The notes under the pieces were generated by a model, which saw only the letters and a program-made list of their open reading frames with translations, was not told the DNA's origin and did not search any database. A stretch of 64,000 nucleotides of DNA, from positions 1 through 64,000 of the forward strand of contig NZ_SHKO01000005.1 of the NCBI RefSeq assembly GCF_004217095.1. The letters run 5' to 3'. Origin of the DNA: Advenella incenata (lineage in GTDB: Bacteria > Pseudomonadota > Gammaproteobacteria > Burkholderiales > Burkholderiaceae_B). The translations under genes and the position numbers were made by a program. Shown here piece after piece: positions 6,711-15,584 of the stretch; the first letter of the stretch is position 1, and every line of letters begins with the position of its first letter.

Positions 6711-7082
6711 TCATTGCGCCGGCGTTACCTGCAGTTGCTGCCGGATAACGGGGTGGATCCAGCACCGCAGCAAGACGGTGCCGGCGGCTTCGAGTACGAA
6801 TGACTTTTCTGTACCCGGCAGTTGCGTATCCAGGGAAACGATCCGGCCATCTCCGTAGGTCACGTAAATGCTGTGCGCAATATCGGCTGCGTTGACGATA
6901 CGTATGCGATCGCCCACGCTTGCCGTAAAATCGGGCTCGCTCAATTCATGGTGATTGAGCGTCAACACATGATCAGCCGTTGCGGCCATGACGGGTGAAT
7001 AAAAAGTCACCAACGGCACAGAGCACGCACCAACACCAAGCGCCATAAGCTGTATGAATGTACGCCGAGTCATATCCTGCAT
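6711..7082 (-). CDS. mauL: MauL-like/amicyanin-like cupredoxin lacking axial Met
   Basis: A 123-residue exported protein with a twin-arginine-type leader (TRRTF, residues 5-9). The rest aligns by eye with amicyanin: NAADIAHSIYV holds the first copper histidine (His70) and CWIHPVIR holds Cys107 and His110. At the place of amicyanin's axial ligand Met98 there is Ile113. It may still bind type-1 copper with three ligands, as in some multicopper oxidases, or may have lost electron transfer. It is the last gene of mauFBEDAG, starting three bases after mauG ends, which is the position of mauL in methylotrophs. The symbol rests on position and fold. Confidence 0.65.
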   Translation of the reverse strand: MQDMTRRTFIQLMALGVGACSVPLVTFYSPVMAATADHVLTLNHHELSEPDFTASVGDRIRIVNAADIAHSIYVTYGDGRIVSLDTQLPGTEKSFVLEAAGTVLLRCWIHPVIRQQLQVTPAQ

Positions 7083-7085
7083 GGG

Positions 7086-8198
7086 TCAATTCTCCAATTG
7101 GCCGGTTGCGGCCTGAGTCACGGGATTTCTGCCAAGCGCCCGCAAAAATGCCAAAAGGTCTGCGCGTTCCTGTCCGGTCAGCGTAAAGGGTTTCATTTCT
7201 GGGGAACGACTGGGCCTGGCAATGCCGCCCTCCTCATAATGGCTGATCACCGCCTCCAGCGAATCGATTGAACCATCATGCATATATGGCCCCTTGTCAT
7301 TCAGTTCACGCAACGTCGGGGTCTTGAAGGCATACTGCATGCCCACAACCTGGGGTGGCGTAAACTTGCCACGGCCACGATCGGCGCTGGCCAGCCCGAT
7401 GTCATGGAAGCCATCATCGGTCATACGCCAGCTGCTGTGGCATGCGCTGCAGCGGGCCTTGCCATTATAGATAGCAAAGCCACGCTGCTCTTGGGTGGTC
7501 AGCGCCTGCTCATCACCGGCTATCCAGCGATCCAGATCGGTGCGCGGCGATACCAGCGTGCGCTCGAAGGTAGCCAGCGCCTGCTTGATATGCACGACGG
7601 TGATTTGCCGGACGCCTCCATAGGCGCGCTGCACCGGTTGTTGGTAATCGTCCAGCGCATTGATACGCTCCAGCAGTAGCGCCACTGGCATGTTCATTTC
7701 ATGTTCAGCCGTAATGGGCATCACCGCTTGCTGCTCCAGCGTATCGGCACGGCCGTCCCACATGAGGGCAGACAGCCAGGCACTGTTGAGCAGGGTCGGC
7801 GTTTTACGGGCAAATTCCTGTTGCTCGGAACCGATCGGCTGCGCCAGGCCGTCACTCCAGCGTTTGCCTGGATCGTGACAGGTAGCGCAGGATCGGCCGG
7901 CACGCGAGAGCCGCGTGTCAAAAAACAGCTTGCGGCCCAGTTCTTCTTTGGCCTGCGAATGGGGATTGTCTGCCGGATAGGGCACCGATTGCGGTCGCTG
8001 ATACTTCTGCTTGAGCGACCGCATCGATCCGGCATCGGCTTGCGGGGCACCGTGAGCGCGACGCAGGTCGGGCCCCTGTACACAGGCAAGCAATGCCGCC
8101 ATCAGAATCAGACCCGGCCATGTGCGCCCGCATTGTTTCTTGCCTTTGATCACAATCGTGTACCTGTCACTGCAACGACTAACTTGCCTTGCCGACAA
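7086..8198 (-). CDS. mauG: MauG di-haem enzyme for TTQ maturation
   Basis: A periplasmic di-haem c protein of the bacterial cytochrome c peroxidase/MauG family. Two CxxCH motifs are visible: CATCHDPGKRWSDG (about residue 109) and CSACHSSW (about residue 243). MauG oxidises precursor MauA to complete the tryptophan tryptophylquinone cofactor. ISHYEEGG near the C-terminus lies roughly where MauG's tyrosine haem ligand is expected; I could not align it. The ATG at 8198 overlaps mauA by 20 bases. An in-frame GTG at 8153, preceded by an AGG, would begin a lysine-rich signal peptide and may be the real start. Confidence 0.9.
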   Translation of the reverse strand: MSARQVSRCSDRYTIVIKGKKQCGRTWPGLILMAALLACVQGPDLRRAHGAPQADAGSMRSLKQKYQRPQSVPYPADNPHSQAKEELGRKLFFDTRLSRAGRSCATCHDPGKRWSDGLAQPIGSEQQEFARKTPTLLNSAWLSALMWDGRADTLEQQAVMPITAEHEMNMPVALLLERINALDDYQQPVQRAYGGVRQITVVHIKQALATFERTLVSPRTDLDRWIAGDEQALTTQEQRGFAIYNGKARCSACHSSWRMTDDGFHDIGLASADRGRGKFTPPQVVGMQYAFKTPTLRELNDKGPYMHDGSIDSLEAVISHYEEGGIARPSRSPEMKPFTLTGQERADLLAFLRALGRNPVTQAATGQLEN

Positions 8199-8739
8199 TC
8201 GGCGAGATGGTGCAGTGATAGGTCATGGAGTCGTCTTCGGCGCCAAAGCACCACACCACGTCATTGCTGAACTCAGGTCGATAAATTGGCAGTTCACCTT
8301 GTGTATTGACACAGTTGCAGCGTCCGCAAGTCTGTTTGCCGCAACAATCCCGGTAAGCGATCAGATAGCTCTGGCCGTCGCCCGGGTTATGGCAGCTGGC
8401 CACCCAGGAACTGGGAGACAGTTTTGAGCCTGGCGGGCAATTGGTCAGAGAGCCACCGCAACAATCGCACAGGTTGCCGTCAATCGAGCAGTGACGCCAA
8501 TAATCGCATGCCTGGGTGTTGGTGTCTTGCGGCTTCCAGCCTTCACGACCCAGCGAGCCCGTTGTTTCGGCATGCGCGTTGTTCAGCCGCCCCCGCCGAT
8601 CAACCGGCAGCAGCGGCAGCAACGCCGCACCGGCCAGCTGTGCACCCAGACGGCCCAGAAAACTGCGTCGACCGATTTTGCTGGCAGCAACCCGGCTCAG
8701 CTTCTCCATTCCATTATCGAAATTGTTGGTTTTTTTCAT
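8179..8739 (-). CDS. mauA: Methylamine dehydrogenase small subunit
   Basis: The 186-residue precursor of the TTQ-bearing beta subunit. A long twin-arginine leader (GRRSFLGRLG, residues 23-32) sends it folded to the periplasm. CDYWRHCSIDGN and GAEDDSMTYHCTISP are near-identical to my memory of Paracoccus MauA. Trp112 and Trp163, 51 residues apart like Trp57 and Trp108 of the mature Paracoccus protein, would form tryptophan tryptophylquinone. Asp87, Asp131 and Thr177 fit the known active-site residues. The mature region has 14 cysteines (two more than I recall, Cys94 and Cys138). GAGGAGA precedes the ATG. These signatures exclude the aromatic amine enzyme with fair confidence. Confidence 0.97.
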   Translation of the reverse strand: MKKTNNFDNGMEKLSRVAASKIGRRSFLGRLGAQLAGAALLPLLPVDRRGRLNNAHAETTGSLGREGWKPQDTNTQACDYWRHCSIDGNLCDCCGGSLTNCPPGSKLSPSSWVASCHNPGDGQSYLIAYRDCCGKQTCGRCNCVNTQGELPIYRPEFSNDVVWCFGAEDDSMTYHCTISPIVGKAS

Positions 8740-8788
8740 GACAATCTCCTCGCTCTATAACAAGCGCTTGTCTGGTTAACGTTGGGAT

Positions 8789-9415
8789 TCAATGCAGCTG
8801 GGGCGCAATATCGGCCGGCTGAACCATTTTTTCACGCATATATTTCTGCAAGGAAGGGTGTCCCAGCCGCACGGTCTCAAACAGGCTTTCGACATGTTCG
8901 CGGGTGTTGCAAAGGCCCTTGGCCAGAATCATTCCCTGTTCGTCCAGTAAAACGCCATAAGGAATTTTCGCGACCTGAAACTTCATGCCGATCTCGGCCG
9001 ACACCACGTACCGCACCTCGCCCATATCGTGTTCGGCCAGGAACTTGCGGTGATCTGCCGCATTACCGTCGCTGACCAGGACAACATCGGCCCCCTCACG
9101 CTGCGCCACTGAACGGATAATTGGAAACAGCTTTGCGCAAATCGGGCAAGTCGGCCCGGTGAACATCAGCAGACTGGGGCGTCCTGGAGTGAGCGCCTGC
9201 CCGACAGCGAGCGGAACACCATAGAAGTCATCCACCTGAAATACCGGAGATTGTTCGCCAATATCCGGACCGTGATCCAGCATCATGGCCCCTAGCGGCG
9301 CTGAGCGTTCGTGCAACAAACCAATTTGACGAATCAGGCCCATGACCAAAACTGCCAGGCCGATAAATCCGAGCCAGAGCATTACGTTGGAAGCGATAAG
9401 CAAGGTTGTATTCAT
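8789..9415 (-). CDS. mauD: MauD disulfide oxidoreductase-like protein
   Basis: A 208-residue thioredoxin-fold protein with an N-terminal membrane anchor (about residues 5-30). The active-site CxxC is seen in GPTCPICAKLFPI. MauD is required for a stable small subunit, presumably by forming or isomerising its many disulfides in the periplasm. The gene sits between mauE and mauA with a GGAG ribosome site ahead of the ATG at 9415. Length and context are normal for the family. Confidence 0.93.
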   Translation of the reverse strand: MNTTLLIASNVMLWLGFIGLAVLVMGLIRQIGLLHERSAPLGAMMLDHGPDIGEQSPVFQVDDFYGVPLAVGQALTPGRPSLLMFTGPTCPICAKLFPIIRSVAQREGADVVLVSDGNAADHRKFLAEHDMGEVRYVVSAEIGMKFQVAKIPYGVLLDEQGMILAKGLCNTREHVESLFETVRLGHPSLQKYMREKMVQPADIAPQLH

Positions 9416-9432
9416 GATGTCTCCATTTCCTA

Positions 9433-9978
9433 TTAAGAATTATTAGAACTGGCAGGTGACAGAGATGAAAGCATATCTGCACCGGTATAAAGAATCGCTG
9501 TCATCGCCGCTGCGGCCAGCGCGAGCACTGTTTCGCCAAGCGTTGCGGTAACACCGATATTGGCCGCATGCGCTACGTACAGCGCCAATCCCGAAAGCAC
9601 CACAGGCCTGGCAAACTGATACAGGCCAATACCATTGCCACGTTCTGCGCCGCGCAGACAGCCACAATCGATATGGGTTCTGCCGCGCGCCAGATTAATG
9701 CCAATTGCAATAGCAAACGACAGCAGCAGCAATGCCACAAGCACCCCGGCATATGCCGTGACGGCGTTTATCAATAGCAGCGCCGCGAGCGACAACTCCA
9801 GATAAGGCAGCATGCGGGCGAACGGATAGGCCAGCACGTCGGGCAGGATGCGATAGTTCACCACGACACCATGAAACTCGTCCTTGTCCCGCAGCTTGGG
9901 CAGCGCCGCGGCAATCAGCACAAAAACCAGGAAGAATTTTGCCAGCATGAAAAGTAACGGATTGGAAATCAAGTTCAT
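9433..9978 (-). CDS. mauE: MauE membrane protein
   Basis: A 181-residue integral membrane protein with about four hydrophobic segments and an internal GCLRG stretch, fitting the MauE/DoxX-like family. MauE is needed together with MauD for small-subunit maturation. The start at 9978 (MNLISNPLL) is chosen because GAGGACA lies just upstream and only seven bases separate it from the mauB stop. An upstream in-frame start would run into mauB. Confidence 0.9.
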   Translation of the reverse strand: MNLISNPLLFMLAKFFLVFVLIAAALPKLRDKDEFHGVVVNYRILPDVLAYPFARMLPYLELSLAALLLINAVTAYAGVLVALLLLSFAIAIGINLARGRTHIDCGCLRGAERGNGIGLYQFARPVVLSGLALYVAHAANIGVTATLGETVLALAAAAMTAILYTGADMLSSLSPASSNNS

Positions 9979-9985
9979 CTTGTCC

Positions 9986-11215
9986 TCACAATTCCGGAAC
10001 CGTGAGCATGACTGGCGCTTTACCCAGCTCGTCCACCTTGCCGGTTTCTTTGCCCGTTGCCGGATCATAGATATACAACGCCCGGTCTATGGCCGAAACG
10101 GCATAAAGCACCGGTTTGTCGTCCTGACTGATCCCGATCGAATCCACCTCGTGACCAAGCTCGATTTTGCCGATCCGTTTTCCGGTTTTTGCTTCAAATG
10201 CAAAAACAAAGCGGCTTGGCAGTTTGTGCGTCCATTTCTCCCGCTGGTCGGCCAGTAGATAAATTGTGTCGCTGGGGCGATGATAGGTCACGGTCATCCA
10301 GCCACCGGGACGCCACTTTTGCTTGCGCTCATCCTCTGTAAACGCATTGAATACTTTGGCAAACGTTGCGCCGTCTGCGCTCAGATCCGCCTGATAGATG
10401 TTGCCCTCATAGCTGGGCCAGACCAATCGCCCGGCCTTTGCCGAATACGCAGGATTGTTAAGCAGATAATCGTCCTCCGGATGAAAGACCTTGGTGTTTT
10501 CCTGTTTGATCTGGCCCTTTCCGTCATACCCCACCTTTAACAGCGAGCCGTCGCGACAGTGCATGTAGAAGGTGTTTTGCTCTGCCGGGAATAAGTGATA
10601 GCAATCGGGCACGTCGACCATTTTGACGAACGATTTATTGGCCACATCGACAATCCCGACTGCAGGCGATGGGGAAAACTGCTGGAACAACAGGAATTTG
10701 TCGTCGTTGGACAGCGTGGCCATGCGCTCGAGCGTAGCGCTCAGAAACCGGCCTTCCGGAATATCAATCTCGGCAATCAGATCATGAGTCTGGGCATCCA
10801 CCAGATCGATGTAATCGTTGCGCTGGCCTCGTGCTATGCGTGCAAACAGCGTATTGGCCACAGCAAAAAACTTGCCGTCATGCGAGGCCATCACGTGCGG
10901 CAGCTTGCCGGCATCGGTCATGCCCAAAAGCTTGCTTTTCTCTCCATCGATTGAAAATATTTGCGAAGTCACATTGAAATGCCCGGGGTCGGTCACATAC
11001 ACCCGTTTGGCATTGCTGGGCGGCGCAGACAGAATTTTGGGTTCATCCTGCAAGGTCGAGGTAATCTCTTTGCCCAGTTGAGTCGGTATTTTGGGCTCTG
11101 CCGCACCCGCTGCGCCCGCCAGCGCCAGGGCTGTGCACGCCGTCATCAGCATCCATCCCGCACGCACGTGCAAGCCAACGCTGCTTGTCTTTACCACCAA
11201 TCCATCTGTCTTCAT
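9986..11215 (-). CDS. mauB: Methylamine dehydrogenase heavy subunit
   Basis: A 409-residue precursor of the seven-bladed beta-propeller heavy chain, which holds the small subunits in an alpha2beta2 complex in the periplasm. Recognisable stretches are RVYVTDPGHFNVTSQ, the repeated propeller blades with aspartate-rich turns, and the ending DELGKAPVMLTVPEL. A signal peptide (hydrophobic stretch about residues 20-39, ending AGAAGAAEP) is present. GGAGAGA precedes the ATG at 11215. It lies between mauF and mauE as in known mau operons. Confidence 0.95.
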   Translation of the reverse strand: MKTDGLVVKTSSVGLHVRAGWMLMTACTALALAGAAGAAEPKIPTQLGKEITSTLQDEPKILSAPPSNAKRVYVTDPGHFNVTSQIFSIDGEKSKLLGMTDAGKLPHVMASHDGKFFAVANTLFARIARGQRNDYIDLVDAQTHDLIAEIDIPEGRFLSATLERMATLSNDDKFLLFQQFSPSPAVGIVDVANKSFVKMVDVPDCYHLFPAEQNTFYMHCRDGSLLKVGYDGKGQIKQENTKVFHPEDDYLLNNPAYSAKAGRLVWPSYEGNIYQADLSADGATFAKVFNAFTEDERKQKWRPGGWMTVTYHRPSDTIYLLADQREKWTHKLPSRFVFAFEAKTGKRIGKIELGHEVDSIGISQDDKPVLYAVSAIDRALYIYDPATGKETGKVDELGKAPVMLTVPEL

Positions 11216-11268: not shown

Positions 11269-12126
11269 TTACACCAAACACACGACCAGCGCCGCAGCCC
11301 CTGCCGTGATCAACAGAAAACCGTCTGCTGTTACTGCCCTTTCCTGGTATTTGGCCAAAAAGCCCTGCACACTGCGGTCACTGACCGGAAACAGGTTGAC
11401 CAGCATGGGTAAAAAGCGACCCGCATTGAATACGCACACTGTTGCAATAGCAAATGAAATATCACCGCTGAGCGCCGCCGCCAGCGTGACAATGTAGAGA
11501 ATCGGCGTCTGCACATAAGTAGAATAATTGGTGCCTAGTGCAAAGCCATATAACAGCCCGATGACCCAGGAGCGAAAGCGAAAGCGCGCATCGTGGGGCA
11601 CTTGCGCCCGACGCTGCGGATAGGGCATGCGCAGGAAATCCAATTGATGCGCACCGTAGCAGAACGCCAGCATGGCCAACACGACAGTCCCCGGAACTAG
11701 CAGGTTGCCGGCCGATAGCAGTATGCCCACACCGCCGAGCAATGAGCCCAGCAGGAGCGCCCCGGCAACATAGCCCAGGGCGTGCATCAAGATTGTTGGG
11801 ATCCAGGCCAGCACACTGCGCAGGCCATAGCTCGCCTGAGGACGCAGCAGGCTCAGGCTTGAGTAGCCGCAAGGAGACCAGGTGGAAAGCAGACCGCCAC
11901 AAAACGCCAGTGGCCATAAGATCAATGTCAGGGACTGCGCCCGCGAACCCGGCGCCTCAAGCAAGCCCCCGATCACGGCTCCGGCGCCCAGCGCCAGCGC
12001 AATCAGCAACAATCGGGCCTGCCACGACTGTGATTGCGCAAAGGAAATGCAATCGAGCACACGCTCCGTTGATTCTGCCGATCGCAAGCTGGTGGACGCG
12101 GTTGCATCATGGTTTGTGGTTATCAT
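11269..12126 (-). CDS. mauF: MauF membrane protein
   Basis: A 285-residue integral membrane protein with about six or seven hydrophobic segments, related to the CcdA/DsbD transmembrane family. Mutants of MauF in methylotrophs fail to make active dehydrogenase, so it is thought to supply reductant or assist export and maturation. I place the start at 12126 (MITTNHDATAS) because GGAGGGG lies seven bases upstream; the longer frame to 12192 has no ribosome site. It is the first gene of the mauFBEDAG-L unit. Confidence 0.9.
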   Translation of the reverse strand: MITTNHDATASTSLRSAESTERVLDCISFAQSQSWQARLLLIALALGAGAVIGGLLEAPGSRAQSLTLILWPLAFCGGLLSTWSPCGYSSLSLLRPQASYGLRSVLAWIPTILMHALGYVAGALLLGSLLGGVGILLSAGNLLVPGTVVLAMLAFCYGAHQLDFLRMPYPQRRAQVPHDARFRFRSWVIGLLYGFALGTNYSTYVQTPILYIVTLAAALSGDISFAIATVCVFNAGRFLPMLVNLFPVSDRSVQGFLAKYQERAVTADGFLLITAGAAALVVCLV

Positions 12127-12404
12127 CTGTAGCCCCTCCATCACATTTGTGTTATTTGCATATTGCTTGCGATGAAGGTTACCGTTACACACGACGGATC
12201 AATAGCACATATCGGCATCTTCCGATTACGGGTTTACCCTTGTCGATAAAAAACCCGCAGGCTGGCAAGATCAAAGTACAAAAAGGGTTGCCGATTTTTA
12301 CTACGGCTTCTGTGGAAAACGGCCTATTCTCAGGCTGAATAATACCGGTCAGTATCAGCGCCAAAGATGTTGAACGACCATAAAGGGGACTGGAGGAGTA
12401 CACA
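12127..12404. promoter_or_regulatory. Divergent mau control region
   Basis: The 278-base gap between mauF (minus) and the AraC-family regulator (plus) must hold both promoters. It contains an inverted repeat, CGGGTTT (12229-12235) with AAACCCG (12251-12257), and two TTGC-containing half-site-like blocks near 12155-12170. I could not assign -35/-10 hexamers. Binding of the adjacent regulator here is an inference from arrangement. Confidence 0.5.
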
Positions 12405-13412
12405 ATGGCTACACCGGATCAGCGAATCGCTGTCGGTCGACAGGCGCTTCCCGCAAGCTCCATGTCAGCGGTAAGGCTGCGCAATAGCGATGTCCTGCAA
12501 CAGGCACAAGCCCTGCCTTTTTGGTCACAGGACTATACCCAATTGTCTGCAGGCAGTTTTCATGGCGAAGTTGACAGCATTGCCACGCGCGGCATTCAGT
12601 TGTTTCGGGAATCCATGACCTGTTCGGTAGATGAACTGGCCAGTGCCCCGGCCAACACATATGTCATAGGCATAGCTGGCAAGGTAACCGGCGATTCTCA
12701 TTGGGGGTCGGTTGCACTGTCGGACAACTCGCTCATTACACTGGACAAGAACGCCGAGCTGGTTTTCCGTACTTCACATCACTCGGAAATCTCGGTGGCC
12801 GTGATTGATGCCGAACGTCTGGACGAATACGCCCAGCAGGTGCTGGGCATCGATCTGCCATGCGTCTTTGGAAAAATACGCCCGGTAGAGCAGCTAGCAG
12901 AGACCCAGGCAGAGTCCATGCGCAGAATGTTCAATGATTTCTTTTTACATCTGCCTCCCATGGCGCGGATTACACCGAACCATGCCGCCTGGAGTCATTT
13001 TGAAGACGATATCATGTCCGAATGCGTACGGGCGTTGGCTTCGGTCAAGCCCCTGTCACACCGCGCCACCGATATCCGGATTCATCGCTACCTGGTGAAC
13101 CGGGTCCGCGAACGCACCCTGGCTTCGCCGCTATGCCCGCCAAGCATTGGCGAGCTATGCCGCGAGCTCAACGTCAGTCGCCGGACCCTGAACCATGCCT
13201 TCATGCGGGTACTTGGCATTACGCCGGTGTCGTACATTCGCAATATCAGGCTTAACCGCGTGCGCGCCGATCTGCAGACGGGCAAGCAGTCTGGCAACTC
13301 CATTGCAGACATCGCCATTCATTGGGGATTCTGGCATATGAGTTTATTTTCGCGCTATTACAAGGCCCTGTTCGGCGAGTTGCCGTCCGAGACACGCAGC
13401 CGTCACGCGTGA
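12405..13412 (+). CDS. AraC-family regulator, probable mau activator
   Basis: A 335-residue regulator with a C-terminal AraC/XylS double helix-turn-helix (about residues 240-330: IGELCRELNVSRRTLNHAFMRV, then IADIAIHWGFWHMSLFSRYYKALFGELPSE). The N-terminal 200 residues resemble the sensor domain of amine-responsive regulators such as EutR and FeaR, by general look only. It is transcribed divergently from mauF and lies directly upstream of mauM and mauN. Paracoccus instead uses the LysR-type MauR. A GGAGGAG ribosome site precedes the ATG. That it controls mau genes is inferred. Confidence 0.85.
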   Translation: MATPDQRIAVGRQALPASSMSAVRLRNSDVLQQAQALPFWSQDYTQLSAGSFHGEVDSIATRGIQLFRESMTCSVDELASAPANTYVIGIAGKVTGDSHWGSVALSDNSLITLDKNAELVFRTSHHSEISVAVIDAERLDEYAQQVLGIDLPCVFGKIRPVEQLAETQAESMRRMFNDFFLHLPPMARITPNHAAWSHFEDDIMSECVRALASVKPLSHRATDIRIHRYLVNRVRERTLASPLCPPSIGELCRELNVSRRTLNHAFMRVLGITPVSYIRNIRLNRVRADLQTGKQSGNSIADIAIHWGFWHMSLFSRYYKALFGELPSETRSRHA

Positions 13413-13436
13413 CACCGGCCTTTTACGGAGGCTCCA

Positions 13437-14117
13437 ATGGCTCAGGAAAAGCCGTCAAATACCAGCGGAATTTCGGAAAAGCGACGTGATTTGCTGAAAA
13501 CGTCGGTGCGTGCAGCCGGGGCTTTGGGCGTGACCTGGCTCGCACTGGATACCGCTGCCGATTCAGTTTCCAGCGCCGAGCCACAGGCATTGCGACCACC
13601 GGGCGCATTGGACGAAGCTGCATTTTTATCTGCCTGTGTGCGGTGTGGCCTTTGTGTACGGGCCTGCCCTTACGATATTCTCTCGTTGGCTACACTGGAC
13701 GGACCGGCCCAGATCGGCACACCCTACTTTGTTGCACGAGACGACCCGTGCCGGATGTGTAAAGACATCCCCTGTGCAAAAGCCTGCCCGACCGGCGCCC
13801 TCGATAGCGAGATGGCCCGGATTGAAGATGCTGACATGGGCGTGGCAGTACTGGTGGGGCATGAAACCTGCCTGAATTACAAGGGACTTAACTGCAGCAT
13901 TTGCTATCGGGTCTGCCCCGTTCGCGGCGAAGCCATCACCCTGGAAACCCATCAGATAAACGGCCAACAGCGCATCATTCCGACTGTGCACTCCGATTCC
14001 TGCACCGGTTGTGGCACGTGCGAGAAGCATTGCGTAATCAAAGAAGCGGCCATCCGCGTACTGCCTCGTAAGCTGGGGCTGGGGCAGGAAGGAGCAAACC
14101 CATCAGGACGACTGTAA
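13437..14117 (+). CDS. mauM: MauM ferredoxin-type protein
   Basis: A 226-residue NapG/MauM-type polyferredoxin. Four cysteine groups predict four [4Fe-4S] clusters: CVRCGLCVRACP, CRMCKDIPCAKACP, CSICYRVCP (with an upstream Cys in ETCLNY), and CTGCGTCEKHC. A KRRDLL stretch followed by a hydrophobic segment (residues about 16-40) looks like a twin-arginine leader. It is a probable periplasmic electron-transfer partner of MauN. The gene follows the AraC-family regulator by 24 bases and precedes mauN by two bases. mauM and mauN are not essential for methylamine growth in some methylotrophs. Confidence 0.92.
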   Translation: MAQEKPSNTSGISEKRRDLLKTSVRAAGALGVTWLALDTAADSVSSAEPQALRPPGALDEAAFLSACVRCGLCVRACPYDILSLATLDGPAQIGTPYFVARDDPCRMCKDIPCAKACPTGALDSEMARIEDADMGVAVLVGHETCLNYKGLNCSICYRVCPVRGEAITLETHQINGQQRIIPTVHSDSCTGCGTCEKHCVIKEAAIRVLPRKLGLGQEGANPSGRL

Positions 14118-14119
14118 TA

Positions 14120-15007
14120 ATGACGACTGCTATGGCGGACCAAACCGTGAAAAAAAAGGAACGCACCGGCTGGCGATCCTGGCGCTGGCTGCTGGCCCGA
14201 CGTACGGCCCAGCTTGCCCTGTTGTTCTTTTTTTTGGCAGGACCCTGGCTGGGATGGCACGTTGCCCAGGGTAATTTCGCATCCAGCCAGTGGTTCGGCA
14301 TCATCGATCTGTCTGATCCCTATATCCTGCTGCAATCGTTGTTGGCGGGCCACGCCGTTTCTGCCGTCGCCATTGGCGGCGCGCTTCTGATCGTGTTGTT
14401 CTATTTTCTGGTTGGCGGCCGCAGCTATTGCAGCTGGTTATGTCCGGTCAATATCGTCACCGACGCCGCACTCTGGCTGCGTGACCGGCTCGGCATAAAA
14501 CGCGACCGCGCCTTCAACAGAAACACCCGCCTTGTCATCCTTGGCGCTACCCTGCTGGCCAGCGTGACCACCAGTGTCGTTGCCTGGGAGATCATCAATC
14601 CGGTCACTATCCTGCAACGCGGACTGATATTCGGCATGGGCCTGGGATGGGCGGTGATTGCCGGCGTGTTCCTGTTCGATCTATTCATTACGCGGCATGG
14701 CTGGTGCGGCTACCTGTGCCCGGTAGGCGCCTTTTATGGAACCCTGGGCCGATTCAGTCGGATCCGGGTGCGGGCGTCCCGTCGGGATGCTTGCGAGCAA
14801 TGCGGCGCCTGTCTGAGAAAATGTCCGGAACCGCATGTCATTGGTCCTGCACTGCGCGGCGAGGATAATGCATTCGTGATATCGGGCGATTGCATCAATT
14901 GTGGCGCCTGTATTGATCACTGCCCTAATGATGTATTCGAAATCAGTTTTCGCCCCCTGACATGGCAGACCGCCAATCGATCGCAAGCGGGTACGACCAA
15001 TAAATAG
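14120..15007 (+). CDS. mauN: MauN/NapH-type membrane iron-sulfur protein
   Basis: A 295-residue membrane protein of the NapH/MauN family. Four or five transmembrane segments contain the paired motifs GRSYCSWLCP and HGWCGYLCP. Two cytoplasmic [4Fe-4S] ferredoxin motifs follow, CEQCGACLRKCP and CINCGACIDHCP. Such proteins pass quinol electrons towards a periplasmic polyferredoxin, here MauM. It ends the plus-strand mau unit. The ATG at 14120 is two bases past the mauM stop; another ATG at 14132 is possible. Confidence 0.92.
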   Translation: MTTAMADQTVKKKERTGWRSWRWLLARRTAQLALLFFFLAGPWLGWHVAQGNFASSQWFGIIDLSDPYILLQSLLAGHAVSAVAIGGALLIVLFYFLVGGRSYCSWLCPVNIVTDAALWLRDRLGIKRDRAFNRNTRLVILGATLLASVTTSVVAWEIINPVTILQRGLIFGMGLGWAVIAGVFLFDLFITRHGWCGYLCPVGAFYGTLGRFSRIRVRASRRDACEQCGACLRKCPEPHVIGPALRGEDNAFVISGDCINCGACIDHCPNDVFEISFRPLTWQTANRSQAGTTNK

Positions 15008-15134: not shown

Positions 15135-15584
15135 TTATGCCTCCAGTTTGAGTGTGCCGCGCATCATGCTCCAGTGTCCAGGATAGGAACATATAAACGT
15201 ATAGGATTCGCCTGGCTTGAGCTTGCTGGTTGCAATAGTCGTATCTGCCGCTTGTCCACCACCGATCAGGACTGTCTTGGCAATAATGCGGGCATCGTCG
15301 GGCTTGAGAAAATCGTGCTCACTTCCCGCTTGCTGGCCTTCCTTGATGATGGCGTCAATTTCACTGCTTTTGCCCAGCACCCAGTTGTGCCCCATGGCAG
15401 TTTTGGGCATGCGTCCGGTATGTTTGAGCGTGACCTTGAAGGTCTCGCAGGATTTTGGCACACTGATCGAGCGCATGCTGTAGCGCATGGTGTCGCTCGA
15501 TTCGACGGTGACTTCGCACGATTGTGCCCAACAAAGAAGCGGACTGGCCGACAGCAGCACGGCAAATACAAATTGGGATTTCAT
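15135..15584 (-). CDS. azu: Azurin
   Basis: A 149-residue precursor of the periplasmic blue copper protein azurin, with a signal peptide ending LLCWAQS and a mature start CEVTVES. The copper ligands are visible: the His of MGHNWVL (His46), then CSYPGHWSMM giving Cys112, His117 and Met121 in azurin numbering. The Cys3-Cys26 disulfide is kept (SCEV, KSCETF). It is a likely electron acceptor for methylamine dehydrogenase, since amicyanin is absent or altered here. It is a single-gene unit with an AGGAG ribosome site and its own terminator, convergent with mauN. Confidence 0.96.
   Translation of the reverse strand: MKSQFVFAVLLSASPLLCWAQSCEVTVESSDTMRYSMRSISVPKSCETFKVTLKHTGRMPKTAMGHNWVLGKSSEIDAIIKEGQQAGSEHDFLKPDDARIIAKTVLIGGGQAADTTIATSKLKPGESYTFICSYPGHWSMMRGTLKLEA

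Follow-up and report, generated by a model that had tools for sequence, protein, structure and literature searches.

MauL, a predicted type-1 copper protein with a family-wide axial isoleucine, is encoded behind one lineage of MauG

The mau cluster of Advenella incenata, which encodes methylamine dehydrogenase (MADH), ends in mauL, a gene for a small cupredoxin-type protein that has isoleucine at the position of the axial methionine ligand; judging from the sequences compared here, this isoleucine is a hallmark of the whole MauL family and not a local quirk. The adjacency of mauL and mauG, the split of MauG into lineages with and without MauL, and the occurrence of axial-Met cupredoxins beside other MauG-like genes suggest that MauL is an electron-transfer partner of the dihaem enzyme MauG. 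We consider it fairly probable that MauL transfers electrons in the periplasm by means of a type-1 copper site and that it works with the adjacent MauG in the formation of the TTQ cofactor of MADH.

The window, i.e., the whole stretch of DNA that was analysed (64,000 nucleotides, positions 1 to 64,000 of contig NZ_SHKO01000005.1), carries mauL on the minus strand at 6711..7082, where the open reading frame was checked: it starts with ATG and encodes 123 amino acids with a putative export signal, the start being twin-arginine-like (13.9 bits, where NCBIfam requires 16.7). It is the last gene of mauFBEDAGL (mauF-mauB-mauE-mauD-mauA-mauG-mauL, all on the minus strand), and only three bases separate the mauG stop from the mauL start. 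The other members are mauG (7086..8198), mauA for the MADH small subunit that bears TTQ (8179..8739), mauD (8789..9415), the mauE ORF (9433..10068), whose listed start overlaps mauB and whose true start is probably further in, mauB for the large subunit (9986..11215), and mauF (11269..12192). The mauF product gave no match in Pfam or NCBIfam; the gene was found by an iterated profile, which also recovers the annotated MauF ORFs of L025 and L026. On the plus strand, mauF is followed by an AraC-type regulator gene (12405..13412), mauM for a ferredoxin-type protein (13437..14117) and mauN for a ferredoxin-type membrane protein (14120..15007), and then, back on the minus strand, by azurin (15135..15584). 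These positions confirm the mau operon context and the nearby azurin that the first-pass annotation had described. Since no amicyanin gene (mauC) was found in the mau cluster of the window, azurin is the likely electron acceptor of MADH here. The divergence of mauMN from mauFBEDAGL (12405-15007) recurs in both congeners; most other mau loci follow a single-strand order, and L049 too has mauMN on the opposite strand. Within the genus, three of ten genomes have MADH, and exactly these three also have MauL, in one case as a split copy: in genome G546 (L072, 5605-5966), mauL is spread over two overlapping frames while the remaining mau cluster is present. Either this gene broke recently or its sequence contains an error.

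Read from the codons, all on the minus strand, the candidate copper site of the window MauL consists of His70 (6873..6875) as first His ligand, Cys107 (6762..6764) as Cys ligand, Trp108 (6759..6761) adjoining it, His110 (6753..6755) as second His ligand and Ile113 (6744..6746) at the axial position, all five being invariant in MauL. An hhalign comparison (95.7%, E 9e-9) between profiles of 21 MauL and 12 amicyanin sequences lays the MauL loop C-W-I-H-P-V-I over the amicyanin loop C-T-P-H-P-F-M, Cys on Cys and His on His, and His70 over the first His ligand of amicyanin. Because the loop aligns without a gap, Ile113 takes the axial Met position, and this placement does not depend on amicyanin alone, because closer cupredoxins share a loop of the same length (CxIHPxM). 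The first-pass annotation had equated His70, Cys107 and His110 with the copper ligands of amicyanin and Ile113 with its axial Met, and both assignments stand: the alignment puts no Met at the axial position. Searched against solved structures, the same MauL profile matches amicyanins best (E 1e-4), and an AlphaFold2 model of the mature protein consists of beta strands only (pLDDT 94.3, pTM 0.83). Family profiles see little of this relationship: the window MauL has no Pfam match, PF00127 included, and reaches 12.7 bits with the NCBIfam amicyanin model TIGR02657 (cut-off 110.2), while PF00127 matches 9 of the 21 members of the MauL alignment with E values up to 0.1 (the lowest being 0.00047). 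All 22 aligned MauL rows conserve the equatorial His, Cys and His, which fall on the amicyanin ligands. The window MauL is thereby characterised by a His-Cys-His triad with an axial side chain that would not coordinate, i.e., by a predicted three-ligand type-1 site.

Of the 31 loci that a scan of GTDB genomes with an alignment of the MADH small subunit returned, 19 contain MauL; together with the window, two congeners and two plasmid records, these make up a set of 24 MauL genes (among them the copy of G546 split over two frames, and L025 and L047 as near-copies). All 24 encode the loop C-W-I-H-P-[VIS]-I and thus the axial Ile. That the substitution marks the entire family was not foreseen by the first-pass annotation. 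The 22 aligned rows all share Asn, the first His, Gln, Pro, Gly, Cys, Trp, Ile, His, Pro and Ile, and most alphaproteobacterial MauL retain a Met two residues beyond the axial Ile. A control with the MauL profile matched 43 of 398 genomes from the phylum and 32 of 289 from the class of G663; motifs were read where loci had been fetched (30 phylum loci, one being the window, and 26 class loci). Axial Met was found in 29/29 phylum loci other than the window and in 25 of the 26 class loci, with one unreadable motif, so that the pooled non-MauL cupredoxins have Met in 54 of 55 loci, one unreadable, and Ile in none. Likewise, none of the 54 readable non-MauL loops has Trp after Cys, and the amicyanins of mau loci read CTPHPFM in all 12 aligned sequences. 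In a cupredoxin tree (55 sequences, 93 columns only), MauL forms one clade of 22 rows (95/89). The window protein falls into this clade, lies behind mauG and carries the C-W-I-H-P-x-I loop, and its first identification as MauL is therefore sound. The more distant MauA-family clusters (13 loci: L055, L056, L058-L066, L069, L070), some of which may encode aromatic amine dehydrogenase, contain neither a MauG-like ORF (E 1e-5) nor a MauL-like ORF (E 0.01). A local mutation or a misalignment of the axial residue was also considered and is ruled out by the Ile of 24/24 MauL genes and the gapless profile alignment.

On plasmid pLVM1 of Methylobacterium sp. DM1 (L025, 9001-9345), mauL lies between mauG and napG, where no gene is listed; in Indioceanicola (L026), it is annotated as a hypothetical protein, the PLSDB table being incomplete. 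The genome of Methylorubrum aminovorans behind L047 holds a second, weaker cupredoxin match besides MauL (L210, 36.7 bits). In the literature searched, where old subscription papers are thinly covered, none of the matches listed treats MauL as a cupredoxin, and among the matches listed no natural carrier with an axial Ile is recognised. The gene name itself comes from the mau literature of the 1990s.

In 24/24 cases, mauL is the next gene after mauG and has the same orientation. All 19 scanned loci with MauL also have MauG; eight of the 31 loci have MauG without MauL, namely five of Paracoccus (one with a truncated mauG), L050, L053 and L054, and four have no MauG in the locus, among them L038, where the contig ends first. 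The MauGs also differ in sequence at positions 93, 199, 208 and 294 in P. denitrificans numbering: Ala199, Trp208, Tyr294 and Trp93 are present in 24/24 MauL-linked MauGs, including that of the window, Trp199 and Tyr294 without Trp208 in 4/4 readable Paracoccus MauGs, and Met294 in L053 and L054. Since Trp199 occurs in 0/20 outgroup MauG-like proteins, several of which have Ala199, it looks like a gain in Paracoccus and not like a loss on the MauL side; Tyr294 is found in several outgroup members as well. Neither Ala199 nor Trp208 can serve as a unique marker of MauL-linked MauG, and both were rejected as such: the outgroups share the former, and the latter recurs in five MauG-like proteins without a cupredoxin within 1.5 kb (L150, L153, L155-L157). 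In a MauG tree (50 rows, careful search), 23 MauL-linked MauGs and L050 form one supported set (100/99), the place of L050 being taken from the drawn tree. The MauG of L050 is of the MauL type (Ala199, Trp208, Tyr294), with Arg in place of the inter-haem Trp93, and no MauL was found in this locus or its genome. In this Geminicoccaceae MAG, mauG is followed, in the place of mauL, by an ORF resembling cytochrome b and a multihaem cytochrome (8477-11072). L053 and L054, with Met at the Tyr294 position of MauG, represent a third type of MADH cluster; between mauJ and mauG of L053 (10448-15895) lie ORFs resembling a c-type and a multihaem cytochrome. The window MauG, the only one scored against NCBIfam TIGR03791, reaches 400.1 bits and stays below the cut-off of 443.85, so MauL-linked MauGs may escape this model. 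Genes of a conserved operon can co-vary for reasons besides direct contact.

Paracoccus, in which no MauL was found, is revealing with respect to the history of both proteins. When MauB, MauA, MauD and MauE are joined in one tree (43 rows; quick search with SH-aLRT support only), all six rows of Paracoccus lie nested among the mauL-bearing alphaproteobacteria, whereas the four Paracoccus rows of the MauG tree fall outside the MauL-linked set. The clade predicted by the MADH tree, i.e., nine alphaproteobacterial MauL-type MauGs together with those of Paracoccus, is rejected (AU p 0.0004), and so is a clade of all MauL-type MauGs, L050 and Paracoccus, a group chosen after seeing the first tree (p 0.012). 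The evidence for a replacement of mauG in Paracoccus is strong, yet short of final, because the Paracoccus MauG branch is long and fast evolution could explain part of the separation. A search that matched both positive controls detected no MauL in the genomes to which the six Paracoccus loci belong, where two weak matches are amicyanins by position, nor in those of L050, L052, L053 and L054, where the one weak match is, by position, the CSIHPFM protein of L052. Several of all these genomes are draft or metagenome assemblies. Among plasmids, MauA (at least 66% identity) occurs in 15 records, 13 of them from Paracoccus, and MauL only in the two others. In Paracoccus MauG, hole hopping to the MADH precursor (pre-MADH) requires Trp199. 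Tentatively, and with somewhat less than even confidence, we propose that at least two non-orthologous systems of MADH maturation exist: the commoner one would combine MauG with MauL as an axial-Ile copper relay, and the MauG of Paracoccus would be the exception, derived from another dihaem lineage and acting alone via its own Trp199, which would make MauL dispensable.

Cupredoxins also accompany MauG-like proteins outside of mau clusters. In eight genomes (G663, G913, G086, G653, G033, G903, G1053 and G1131), the gene of an axial-Met cupredoxin with the loop CxIHPxM is the immediate same-strand neighbour of a MauG-like dihaem gene, and in three more (G458, G702 and G588) it lies within about 1.7 kb of one. 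No MauA was found in these 11 genomes with a query that gave matches elsewhere, the search itself including no positive. In a sample of 398 genomes, the MauG-like proteins closest to the window MauG (50% and 49% identity) are both paired with a cupredoxin. Such neighbours are not the rule: the 29 MauG-like loci read other than the window include five with a cupredoxin on the same strand, two with one on the opposite strand, one weak match with an unreadable loop, and 21 with none within about 1.5 kb. In L135 (5271-7400) and L110 (83-2166), from genomes without MauA, the next gene after the pair carries two CxxCH motifs, and the triplet is possibly a three-gene module for periplasmic electron transfer. 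The simplest history would be that a pair of a MauG-like protein and a cupredoxin was recruited into mau, and that the cupredoxin then exchanged Met for Ile and gained the Trp.

A mechanism can be proposed on this basis. MauL would descend from an axial-Met cupredoxin that was the partner of MauG-like dihaem enzymes before it entered the mau cluster; there, it would have acquired the axial Ile, which should raise its potential, and the Trp beside the Cys ligand. MauL would dock to MauG close to its second haem, on the side of Tyr294, and carry single electrons from pre-MADH or a TTQ intermediate to the high-valent haems, a route that would stand where Paracoccus MauG employs its own Trp199. 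We infer that MauL is probably a dedicated electron relay of MauG with a raised potential, because potentials of sites with hydrophobic axial residues offer precedents, and because a cupredoxin is known as donor to a dihaem peroxidase. Insertion mutants of mauL and mauG in M. extorquens AM1, described by Chistoserdov et al. in 1994, reportedly both hold normal amounts of non-functional MADH. Exchange of Met121 of azurin for Leu, Ile or Val raises the potential by 100-140 mV (PMC12071310), exchange of the axial Leu of a laccase for Met lowers it by 140 mV (PMC4220974), the gonococcal dihaem peroxidase is stated to receive its electrons from azurin (PMC10094543), and MauL is termed an accessory protein (PMC2474590). 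By analogy with these azurin and laccase variants, the raised potential anticipated by the first-pass annotation is indeed what a hydrophobic axial residue should cause (PMC12071310 and PMC4220974, both in excerpt). At a potential that we estimate at about 0.4-0.6 V, a cupredoxin could not oxidise tryptophan outright and would suit only the easier steps of TTQ formation.

The pairing of MauL with MauG would equally fit a protective reductant, which drains high-valent MauG that has no pre-MADH bound and spares MauG and MADH self-oxidation instead of acting as a productive carrier. The reported genetics, i.e., a mauL mutant that resembles the mauG mutant, demand more than protection, however, and the Met that most alphaproteobacterial MauL retain two residues past the axial Ile speaks against this role as well; we regard it as unlikely. 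A cupredoxin fold without copper, which helps MauG and pre-MADH to dock or assemble, would explain why the axial ligand is gone and why the window MauL stays under every Pfam and NCBIfam cut-off for cupredoxins, but it would leave the invariant His, Cys and His (22/22 aligned rows) unaccounted for, and type-1 sites of laccases normally have hydrophobic axial residues according to the excerpt of PMC4220974, which makes a copper-free MauL quite unlikely.

Two further roles would link MauL to other proteins than MauG. As a distant relative of amicyanin, and as the only cupredoxin of the mauL-bearing loci L036, L051 and L026, MauL might be an extra electron acceptor of finished MADH, in parallel to azurin or amicyanin. 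However, mauL lies behind mauG and not behind mauA, the absence of MauL tracks the change of MauG lineage rather than a change of MADH, and amicyanin and MauL occur together in ten loci, so we consider this role very unlikely. The delivery of copper to azurin had been suggested by the first-pass annotation, and a chaperone that loads azurin or amicyanin would suit both the copper-type site and the azurin near mauL in the window and nine other loci. This suggestion is not favoured, because MauL also occurs with amicyanin or with neither acceptor: amicyanin is present and azurin absent in the stretch read of ten mauL-bearing loci, and both are missing from L036, L051 and L026 (also from L027, whose locus is cut by the contig end). 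Moreover, amicyanin exists without MauL in 4/4 Paracoccus loci that reach mauN, and the positional partner of mauL is mauG in 24/24 cases, so that a chaperone role appears highly improbable. The pairing of the genes favours MauG as the partner.

TTQ formation is a model of the biosynthesis of protein-derived cofactors, and what textbooks teach about its mechanism comes from Paracoccus MauG. Should another MauG lineage with a copper partner serve most MADH clusters, the Paracoccus mechanism would not be general, and mauL would acquire a testable role. The MauL family also represents natural single-domain cupredoxins with Ile in place of the axial Met, and the axial-Met relatives beside related dihaem enzymes allow a comparison.

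Among known systems, the MauL of Methylorubrum and Methylobacterium is closest: it likewise lies behind mauG and has the loop C-W-I-H-P-[IV]-I, with 48% identity over the aligned domain between the MauL of the window and that of pLVM1 of Methylobacterium sp. DM1, while the window differs by its twin-arginine-like signal, azurin instead of amicyanin, and mauMN on the other strand. Amicyanin (MauC) shares the cupredoxin family, the His-Cys-His ligands and the loop length with MauL, but has CTPHPFM with an axial Met where MauL has CWIHPxI. The CxIHPxM cupredoxins resemble MauL in the CxIHPx part of the loop, the small domain and the gene beside a MauG-like gene, and differ by the axial Met, the lack of a Trp after Cys and genomes without a MauA match. 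Azurin and pseudoazurin are carriers with an axial Met; MauL, in contrast, looks dedicated and has Ile at this position. They are similar in that a cupredoxin feeds a dihaem enzyme of the same superfamily, as given for Neisseria LAz in the excerpt of PMC10094543 and, for pseudoazurin of Paracoccus pantotrophus as donor of a dihaem peroxidase, in the title of a reference in PMC10301912. Finally, the type-1 sites of laccases (axial Leu or Phe) share with the predicted site of MauL a three-ligand copper, a hydrophobic axial residue and a raised potential (PMC4220974, in excerpt), but they are part of a multicopper oxidase domain, whereas MauL would be a free single-domain carrier.
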